A DNA stretch of 35,243 bases from Campylobacterales bacterium (GTDB taxonomy: Bacteria; Campylobacterota; Campylobacteria; Campylobacterales; Sulfurimonadaceae), in contig JACUTT010000021.1 in NCBI GenBank assembly GCA_014859655.1, forward strand, positions 1-35,243, in the 5' to 3' direction. Shown one piece after another: positions 1 through 2,617 of the stretch. The position numbers and the translations under genes were made by a program. Position 1 is the stretch's first letter; each line of letters begins with the position of its first letter. Under the pieces are notes generated by a model, which searched no databases, was not told where the DNA came from, and saw only the letters and a list, made by a program, of their open reading frames with translations.

Positions 1-71
1 CAAGAAAAGTTCTGCACAATCTCATCTCTCTTTTTCCCTCTGAAGGCAGTTGGGGTTTTTAGAGGTGCCCT
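1..71. mobile_element. probable end of an insertion sequence (left window edge)
   Basis: The lapD reading frame stops at 59-61, just after its GGDEF domain. The stop codon lies in a stretch that, read on the minus strand, runs GGGCACCTCTAAAAACCCC, which has the look of an IS terminal repeat. The element would extend leftwards out of the window, so no transposase is visible and the family cannot be assigned; an IS5-like end is only an impression. Support comes from the abrupt loss of the rest of LapD at this point. Confidence 0.4.
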
Positions 72-1276
72 ATGTTCTCCATGCTCTCTTGTACGCAGAC
101 AGAGGCAACGCTGTTCTTCTGAACGCCAGAAAGCTCTTTTTCGATCTTGTTCAGAAGAAGAGGCACGGTGTCTTGTGCTGTGTAGTTGAGCTGCAACAGT
201 TTTACGGCGCACTCGCAATCCTGGGCAGATGAGGCTTCGATGGTCATAATCGCCTTGGCCAAGATCTCATCCGCTATCTTTTCAATATCATCTTTTTGCA
301 TGCGAGGGAAGATCAGCGAGATCTTTGTCCCGTCGATACGTGCAATGACGACCTGCTTCTGCTCTTGTGTCTCACGGACAAGACGCTGCGACAGTTCTTT
401 AATAAGGCTATCGACATTGTCATGACCCAAGACTCTGTTGGCTTCAACAATACCCTCGATATAAAGAGTGAGAACTACACCTTTGGAATCGGCTTCCTCA
501 GAAGAGATAAACTCATTAAGTTTAAGTTCAAAAAAATTGCGGTTACCCAACCCGGTAAGTCTGTCCTTATATAGAAGTCGGTGGTTCTCTCTGGCCGAAT
601 CGGCTTCTTTTGCAAAAATATCCTTGACCTTGGCAACCATCTTGTTCATCGCCAGGGTCACCTCTTTAAGCTCTGCTGTAGAGGGAATCTTCGTGTTGAT
701 GATAAAGTTGTTATTGCTGACAGCTTCGGCCTGCTCCTCCACGCGCTTGAGTGAGCTGAGTAGAAGTCTGAGCAGGAGATACAGAAGTGAGAAAGTGACC
801 AAAGAGATCAATGCAAAAGTCTTGAGAAGCTTCTTAAAGTTCCCATAAAGTTTGATATGTGCATTTTCTTGTATGGGCGTGATCGTGATCGTACCGATGG
901 GATTCCAACCCGAAGAGACGGTTGCCGAGGCGAGGGGTGACTTGAGCGTATAGAGGGATCTAAACCATTGTGGGATCTCTGAGAACCCGCTGGGTATCAG
1001 ACGTTCGTGGATAAGCTTGTTATTCGTATCACGAAGAACGATCTTTTGAAAATATCCGCTGTCGAAGAGGGCATCGATCATGGTGGCCATCGCAGAGAGA
1101 TCTCCCTGGGCATTGGCAAGGGAGAGACTCAGCGAAGAGGCAGTGTTTTGCGCATTGTTTGCCAGTTCAGCTTCTGCATATCGTGCGGAGGACTGAAAGT
1201 TCAGGGCCATGACGGCTAAGAGTATCAACAATAAAAAAAGCGACATAATTATAGCAATCTGCTTAAATAGACTCAT
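59..1276 (-). pseudogene. lapD: LapD-like c-di-GMP receptor, truncated after the GGDEF domain
   Basis: LapD is an inner-membrane receptor. When its cytoplasmic EAL domain binds c-di-GMP, its periplasmic domain holds the protease LapG away from a surface adhesin. Visible here are a first membrane segment (residues about 8-25), a periplasmic LapD/MoxY-type domain (about 26-150), a second membrane segment (about 152-175), a HAMP-like linker and a GGDEF domain starting at DRLTGLGNR (about 238). The GGDEF signature is degenerate (ARIDGTKI, about 312), as in LapD, so no cyclase activity is expected. The protein is 405 residues against about 640 in the family, and the whole EAL domain is missing. 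The ATG at 1276 overlaps the lapG stop as ATGA and has an AGGA site upstream, so translation is probably coupled. The tail MENIGHL may come from IS sequence. A stand-alone GGDEF protein is possible, but the lapG neighbour argues for a broken lapD. Confidence 0.75.
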
Positions 1277-1923
1277 AGTTTGTTCCTTTTGACACGTTGG
1301 TTGAGTTCTTCCCATTTTTTATGGGTGCTTTGCTGAGCGGATGAATTTTCTATCGTATCGGCGTTAAAATTGTATATCGGGACAAGGTCACTGCGATTAG
1401 AAGCCGTATCTATGTCTGCAGAGATATTGTCTAGAATCAGAGGATCGGATTGGGGTGACTCAAAATAGCTCAGAACCATATGCGGCGCTTTTAGGCGTTT
1501 TGAATTGACATAGGTGAAATAGAGCCGTTTCGGATCAACATTAAGTGTTTTCAGCGCAAAATACTTTGCGATCACATAATCTTCAGAGTCTCCCTTGTTG
1601 CGCGCTAGAAACTCCAATGGCGTTGCCCAGTAATCGTCTAGCTTCCAGTTTTCTATGTCGCTGAGAAAAGGGAGGGCATTAAAAAAATCATTAACCAGCT
1701 TAAGCTTGCTGCGTTCAGAGAGAGGTTCTGCGTTGCGAAGCATCGTGTTGTAGGCAAGGTAGCGGCTTACGACAAAGCCGCCATACTTCCGTTCGGCTTT
1801 TTTCATAACGGATTCAGGAATGTTCTGCCCATTAAAGGCAAAGGCGGATGGACTGAAAAGAAGTAGAACAATTAAATTTAATATTGGCATTTTTAATTTT
1901 AGCATTTTCAAAGAATAAATCAT
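1273..1923 (-). CDS. lapG: LapG-type periplasmic transglutaminase-like protease with catalytic Cys replaced by Ser
   Basis: LapG is a calcium-dependent periplasmic cysteine protease that clips LapA-type adhesins off the cell surface. The protein has a signal peptide (hydrophobic stretch ending SPSAFA), then the family signature DDYWATPLEFLARNKGD followed by SEDYVIAKYF. In active LapG this site reads GDCEDY; here the codon at 1585-1587 is TCT (Ser). The His of the triad (APHMVLSYF) and the Asp (LILDNI) remain. Counted from the ATG at 1923 these are S113, H148 and D165. The start is uncertain: no good ribosome site precedes 1923 or the next ATG at 1905. Length is normal for the family. It is co-transcribed with the truncated lapD. 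The family call is firm; loss of activity is inferred from the missing nucleophile. Confidence 0.85.
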   Translation of the reverse strand: MIYSLKMLKLKMPILNLIVLLLFSPSAFAFNGQNIPESVMKKAERKYGGFVVSRYLAYNTMLRNAEPLSERSKLKLVNDFFNALPFLSDIENWKLDDYWATPLEFLARNKGDSEDYVIAKYFALKTLNVDPKRLYFTYVNSKRLKAPHMVLSYFESPQSDPLILDNISADIDTASNRSDLVPIYNFNADTIENSSAQQSTHKKWEELNQRVKRNKL

Positions 1924-2050: not shown

Positions 2051-2617
2051 ATGGCAACCATTGGAATGGGTGATATTAAGAAAAATGTGCGTTTAGAGGT
2101 CAGTGGTGTCCCGTACAAAGTTGTTGACTTTCAACACGTAAAACCGGGAAAAGGCGCAGCCTTTGTGCGCATGAAGGTCAAAAGCTTTATCAATGCAAAA
2201 GTGATCGAAAAGACAGTACATGCCGGCGATAAGTTTGAAGTGCCAAATATCGTCTACAAGACGATGCAGTACCTGTATGATGACGGCGAAATGCTTCAGT
2301 TTATGGACACAGAGACATATGATCAGCTTGGCCTGACCTATGAGCAGTGCGATGATGCGATGAAGTGGCTAAAAGACGGTACCAATGTGGAGCTGGTCCT
2401 TCATAACGGGAAACCGATCTCCGTGGATGCTCCCGAGATCATGGAGCTGCTGATCACTGAAACTCCTCCCAACTTCAAAGGCGACACTTCCAGCGGTTCA
2501 AAAAAACCGGCTACGCTGGAGACCGGTGCTGTCGTCCAGGTTCCTTACCATGTTCTTGAGGGTGATTTGATCAAAGTCAACACAGTAGAGGGCGAATACC
2601 TCGAAAAAGTAAAATAA
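2051..2617 (+). CDS. efp: Translation elongation factor P
   Basis: EF-P binds the ribosome between the P and E sites and relieves stalling at proline runs. The 188-residue protein has the three-domain EF-P length. The KOW-like N-terminal domain carries the loop [10 protein letters not shown], whose K34 is the position that EpmA-type enzymes beta-lysylate in other bacteria. The C-terminal part ([16 protein letters not shown], then [12 protein letters not shown]) matches the conserved OB folds. The ATG at 2051 follows GAGGATACGCG. The gene stands alone between its own promoter and a downstream hairpin. No modification enzyme (epmA/epmB) is in the window. Confidence 0.97.

Follow-up and report, generated by a model that had tools for sequence, protein, structure and literature searches.

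Near its left end the window (the whole stretch of DNA analysed, 35,243 nucleotides) carries a lapG-like gene that lies between a divergently transcribed efp and a lapD broken by a repeat element. The features discussed below are as follows (positions in the window).

1..73, no strand assigned: one terminus of a MITE-like inverted-repeat element of high copy number, which interrupts lapD between GGDEF and EAL
59..1276, minus: 5' part of lapD (LapD_MoxY_N with GW loop, HAMP and GGDEF), its frame ending inside the repeat
1273..1890, minus: lapG-like gene (Ser1 clade), 205 aa, with its ATG at 1890 chosen on the basis of its relatives' starts
1429..1431, minus: triad Asp (residue 154), retained in the alignment
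1480..1482, minus: triad His (residue 137), retained in the alignment
1582..1590, minus: D-S-E around the nucleophile; D101 and E103 are kept, and their counterparts are required for calcium binding in LapG/DvhG
1585..1587, minus: nucleophile codon TCT (Ser), matching C135 of Pseudomonas fluorescens LapG
2051..2617, plus: efp (elongation factor P), divergent neighbour of lapG

An alternative TTG start upstream, at 1947, would give an open reading frame of 1273-1947 and a protein of 224 aa. The N-terminus resembles a signal peptide (MPILNLIVLLLFSPSAFA). The serine codon, read on the minus strand at 1587..1585, sits inside G-D-S-E-D-Y, which confirms the substitution reported in an earlier note on this DNA. 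The same column is Cys in all 55 aligned Cys-type LapGs. In P. fluorescens numbering, counted from C135, the triad His and Asp are residues 170 and 187.

The protein passes the curated cut-off of Pfam Peptidase_C93 (PF06035; 33 versus 27 bits). Its AF2 model (pLDDT 90.6) has LapG structures as its best PDB matches, namely 4u65 of P. fluorescens (TM 0.85) and 4fgq of Legionella (TM 0.80), and it displays the transglutaminase-type fold of LapG. Of the Cys-His-Asp triad, His and Asp are retained and Ser replaces Cys, so that alignment, model and PDB matches agree with the earlier description of a kept fold, His and Asp. With 156 bits the protein falls below the 320 bits of the NCBIfam equivalog NF045674 (LapG), as does the Cys paralogue of a related genome, G003 (187 bits). 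The co-encoded LapD has a LapD_MoxY_N periplasmic domain (97.8 bits) with its Trp loop present (GWNPIG).

An orphaned pair in the window's own genome

The start ATG of lapD overlaps the lapG stop (ATGA), and lapD has a length of 418 aa here, since the contig ends in the repeat. A LapD that naturally lacks EAL was ruled out by the 637-aa LapD of relatives (full length in four other Ser1 species) and by the genome's own EAL half. This half lies at the right end of another contig (G000:C2:75880-76584, L092) and is 88% identical to that of G004; after it, C2 ends with the opposite end of the same repeat element. The left end of C67 and the right end of C2 would join via a single copy of the element. 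That is, lapG is intact in this genome while the c-di-GMP-reading half of its partner LapD is separated. The element has 49 matches in the genome, on C2, C69, C49, C35, C8, C37 and other contigs, and many contigs end in it. Complete copies are ~165-270 bp long, with terminal inverted repeats of 28-43 nt (beginning GGGCACCTCTAAAAACC), variable interiors and apparent 4-bp target duplications (TTTA, TAAA, TAAG).

The genome of the window (G000; 2.17 Mb, 99.6% completeness) contains no second LapG and no Cys LapG, and neither a LapB above cut-off nor a retention-module adhesin was found in it. With these components undetected and lapD split, the lapG-like gene is an orphan there. The earlier note had written of the protein and 'its adhesin', a phrase for which this genome offers no candidate.

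Conservation of the serine across the genus

The genus set comprised six genomes, G000 to G005, and the named records of the genus are MAGs filed as Arcobacter, Sulfurimonas or Campylobacterales. A lapG-like gene is present in five of the six (G000-G004), always with Ser at the nucleophile, and the encoded proteins are 63-89% identical to the window protein. When the nucleophile and His columns are masked before tree building, these five orthologues form a single clade (Ser1; support 100/100). A recent point mutation or a sequencing error is ruled out by the Ser in four other species' assemblies; since it occupies the same site in each, miscalling of the base can for practical purposes be excluded. 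The earlier note had named, as one thing that would refute its reading, close relatives with an active LapG carrying Ser here; the Ser half of that condition is what these four species supply.

The Ser codons of the clade are TCT, TCT, TCT, TCA and AGC, and so come from both serine boxes. Passage between TCN and AGY requires a double change or an intermediate residue, which implies either that Ser was held by selection or that Cys changed to Ser repeatedly within the clade; either route argues against accident. The single base change from TGT put forward earlier is possible for the window codon, although the substitution itself is old and shared by the whole clade rather than specific to one strain.

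Pairwise dS is mostly saturated inside the clade, and only two pairs are usable. The lapG-like gene has a dN/dS of 0.114 for the pair G000 and G004, similar to the 0.02-0.22 of neighbouring genes, and 0.08 for the pair G001 and G002. On the G000 branch there is no clear excess of changes (7 versus 5). The clade retains 28 of the 29 columns that are at least 95% conserved in the 55 Cys LapGs, the sole difference being C135, and in the alignment Cys is absent from the rest of the Ser1 LapG domain as well. The acidic residues of the calcium site (equivalents of P. fluorescens D111, D134 and E136) are retained in all five species.

Seen from G000 alone, one could suspect a decaying gene whose active site went after the adhesin system that it served was lost: a retention-module adhesin, LapB and Cys LapG are undetectable there, and a repeat splits lapD. 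For the Ser1 clade this is largely refuted and we regard it as highly improbable, given a dN/dS of 0.11 with no acceleration on the G000 branch, the near-complete set of key columns, a full-length lapD in four other species and a Ser common to five species at such divergence. To judge from these sequences, the Ser-form LapG looks like a maintained non-cutting version, not a broken gene. The recent change in one strain implied by the earlier note gives way to a conserved paralogue under purifying selection, with Ser in 5/5 orthologues and no lesion.

Cysteine paralogues, adhesins and other serine lineages

Three of the five Ser1 species (G002, G003 and G004) additionally encode a normal Cys LapG (GDCEDY), 41-51% identical to the window protein, and the cutting job in these other genomes would fall to this separate protein. 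The Cys LapG genes lie inside a Lap operon (a lapE-B-C-luxR-lapG-lapD-adhesin cluster) together with genes for an ABC secretion ATPase above the LapB cut-off and for LapC-like, LuxR-like and LapD proteins; the cluster of G004 also encodes a 1481-aa adhesin with TAAG. The Ser1 gene forms a free-standing lapG-lapD pair, and the efp/lapG/lapD order of the window recurs in G001 and G004. Each LapG of G002-G004 has its own linked LapD. A LapB-type ATPase (TIGR03375 above cut-off) was found in G002, G003 and G004 and had no match above cut-off in G000, G001 or G005, and a retention-module adhesin with a [T/A/P]AAG site was not found in G000 or G001.

In G003 the Ser1 lapG and the gene of an adhesin with a TEAG site are arranged head to head. 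G002 likewise has a TEAG adhesin of this type, located on a different contig. Among the adhesins read, TAAG occurs in 5/5 of those linked to Cys LapG and TEAG in 2/2 of the type seen next to the Ser1 gene in G003 (G002, G003). TTAVG was dropped as the cleavage site of the G003 adhesin, whose expected place reads TEAG. Matches to LapA_retention in G001, G002 and G005 were rejected as adhesins; by eye they resemble small proteins of the FecR type that neighbour CHASE2-like ones. CdrA-like two-partner adhesins (PF05860) gave no match, but the control genomes likewise had none, which leaves this negative with little weight. Separately, G003 has a second LapB-type secretion system (L133 / L138, G003:C94) adjoining a very large adhesin-like protein, the N-terminus of which is unlike the Lap retention module. 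Two Sulfurimonas MAGs (L038, L044) have Cys-type lapG genes in close pairs, and L044 also has two TAAG adhesins.

In a wider set of 397 Campylobacterota genomes, a pattern for the nucleophile motif with TGY or AGY matched 132 sites, 129 of them Cys and 3 Ser. With TCN the pattern matched two sites, the window and G401. The three AGY cases (G329, G347 and G399; the SerY lineage) combine C to S with H to Y, and their genes lie within complete operons that encode an outer-membrane efflux-type protein, lapG, lapD, lapB, lapC and large adhesins. In G401 a tandem lapG pair runs from the Ser copy to the Cys copy to LapD, and the Ser copy lacks the RxDL region. The corresponding features are the following.

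L130 9176-9811, minus: LapG with C to S and H to Y in a complete lap operon, adhesin without cleavage site
L131 9416-10045, plus: LapG with C to S and H to Y in a complete lap operon, adhesin without cleavage site
L132 9198-9842, plus: LapG with C to S and H to Y in a complete lap operon, adhesin without cleavage site
L107 / L109 8634-10000, minus: tandem lapG, a divergent Ser copy beside a Cys copy, then a LapD of 739 aa whose periplasmic part is longer

A [TAP]AAG motif is found in the first 260 residues of 0/3 SerY-linked adhesins versus 5/5 Cys-linked ones, a comparison of small numbers and related sequences. On the LapG tree the Ser state requires three C/S changes. A common origin of Ser1 and SerY is disfavoured by the tree, yet the AU test does not reject it (p 0.24); Ser1 as sister to the genus's Cys LapGs is not rejected either (p 0.41).

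These data bear on whether the Ser1 protein could be an active protease with a serine nucleophile, using the same His and Asp with altered specificity (TEAG versus TAAG). Such an enzyme must be taken seriously because all five species share an unchanged His, Asp and set of calcium-site residues. Moreover, Ser is kept across the TCN/AGY codon switch, as where serine itself is required, the site of the linked adhesin is altered rather than erased, and families with a conserved Ser in place of Cys have been noted in the papain-like superfamily (PMC10318531). On the other hand, the same replacement is accompanied by loss of His in the SerY lineage, a matching TEAG adhesin is present only in G002 and G003, and the C192S mutant of HvyA is dead (PMC4241560). 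We therefore consider a working serine protease unlikely, although less so than decay.

The coexistence of both forms in G002, G003, G004 and G401 suggests a further option, in which the Ser copy would act as a decoy or competitor, occupying LapD or the adhesin and thereby tuning the Cys LapG of the same cell. In favour of this, a LapG labelled at C135 is usable in LapD binding assays (PMC5231407). Yet a Cys LapG to compete with is absent from G000 and G001, and in G002-G004 the two LapGs have separate linked LapDs. Competition within one cell seems to us a poor prospect, on a par with decay.

A LapG that may bind without cutting

In the usual understanding of the Lap system, c-di-GMP governs one irreversible act, the cutting of an adhesin. 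In P. fluorescens, the cut that LapG makes in LapA falls between two Ala; the C135A mutant has no activity, and cells carrying it are hyper-adherent (PMC3032545). In HvyA, another member of the BTLCP family, the same swap as in the window protein (C192S) is non-functional. By analogy with these two mutants, the Ser most likely abolishes cleavage. LapD recruits LapG through its Trp loop (PMC4359373), and LapG binding itself aids LapD activation (PMC5231407). C135 is the only Cys of LapG and carried the dye with which LapD binding was measured in the latter work; judging from that labelled protein, it is plausible that the Ser LapG still binds LapD, the GW-loop Trp of which is retained in the window.

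The pattern in the Ser1 clade combines a clade-wide Ser, selection, otherwise intact residues, linkage to lapD and one adjacent TEAG adhesin. The reading that we favour, with some reserve, is that the window gene encodes a conserved LapG pseudoprotease, a LapD-binding calcium-site module that does not cut; for this protein we infer the lack of proteolysis, the binding of LapD and of an adhesin, and the direction of regulation. An ancestral LapG-LapD pair would have been duplicated. One copy would have retained Cys and remained in the lapEBC-adhesin operon, and the other would have swapped Cys for Ser, with purifying selection preserving the non-cutting protein. The Ser LapG would then act in the periplasm as a calcium-binding partner to the LapD that is co-transcribed with it. 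At high c-di-GMP, LapD would hold it; at low c-di-GMP, it would be free to bind a periplasmic target without cutting. Where present, this target is probably an adhesin retention module with an altered site (TEAG replacing TAAG). The protein may thus serve as a reversible clamp, not a release scissor, or may provide LapD with an input from the periplasm. In G000 the pair might act on another target or have lost control.

Two observations stand against this. A pure binder would have no need of the His, Asp and calcium-site residues, all of which are fully kept in the clade, and the TEAG adhesin adjoins the Ser gene in one species only (G003). Moreover, with no adhesin or LapB found in G000 and G001, the clamp idea is without a target there.

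Taken more broadly, several Campylobacterota lineages have lost the nucleophile (one also the His), with partner adhesins whose site is lost or altered. It is possible, though we lean somewhat against it, that LapG repeatedly became a non-cutting, c-di-GMP-controlled adhesin clamp and that in such Lap systems the adhesin is held and released, or LapD signals, without proteolysis. If true, a LapG without nucleophile and lap operons without a cut site would mean that LapD-LapG can be useful by binding alone. This raises the question of whether the LapG of ordinary systems also has a non-catalytic function, and it cautions against automatically annotating a LapG homologue as an adhesin-releasing protease. 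On sequence grounds, the Ser LapG would be a pseudoprotease branch of LapG, a new variation on a known family. We found no report of a natural Ser LapG or a LapG pseudoprotease in what could be consulted of the openly licensed literature, which is not proof of novelty.

Among the closest known systems is LapG of P. fluorescens (Peptidase C93 / BTLCP; 4u65), with which the window protein shares the fold, His, Asp and the D-x-E at the nucleophile, as well as overlapping lapG-lapD genes and a LapD periplasmic domain with a GW loop. It differs in its Ser nucleophile and in its free-standing pair beside efp, and unlike the P. fluorescens Lap system, its genome has no TAAG adhesin or LapB that we could find. 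HvyA of Caulobacter belongs to the same family, and its laboratory mutant C192S is the counterpart of the natural Ser change; HvyA itself is catalytic and acts on capsule control, with no LapD partnership. In DvhG/DvhA of Desulfovibrio vulgaris, the adhesin's own retention domain makes contact with the protease outside the active site (PMC13090378), a kind of contact that a non-cutting LapG could use, whereas DvhG itself has an intact C-H-D triad, cuts and works with a different receptor (HD-GYP). The Cys LapG paralogues of the genus (G002, G003 and G004) have the same partners and differ by their Cys and their location in a lap cluster.
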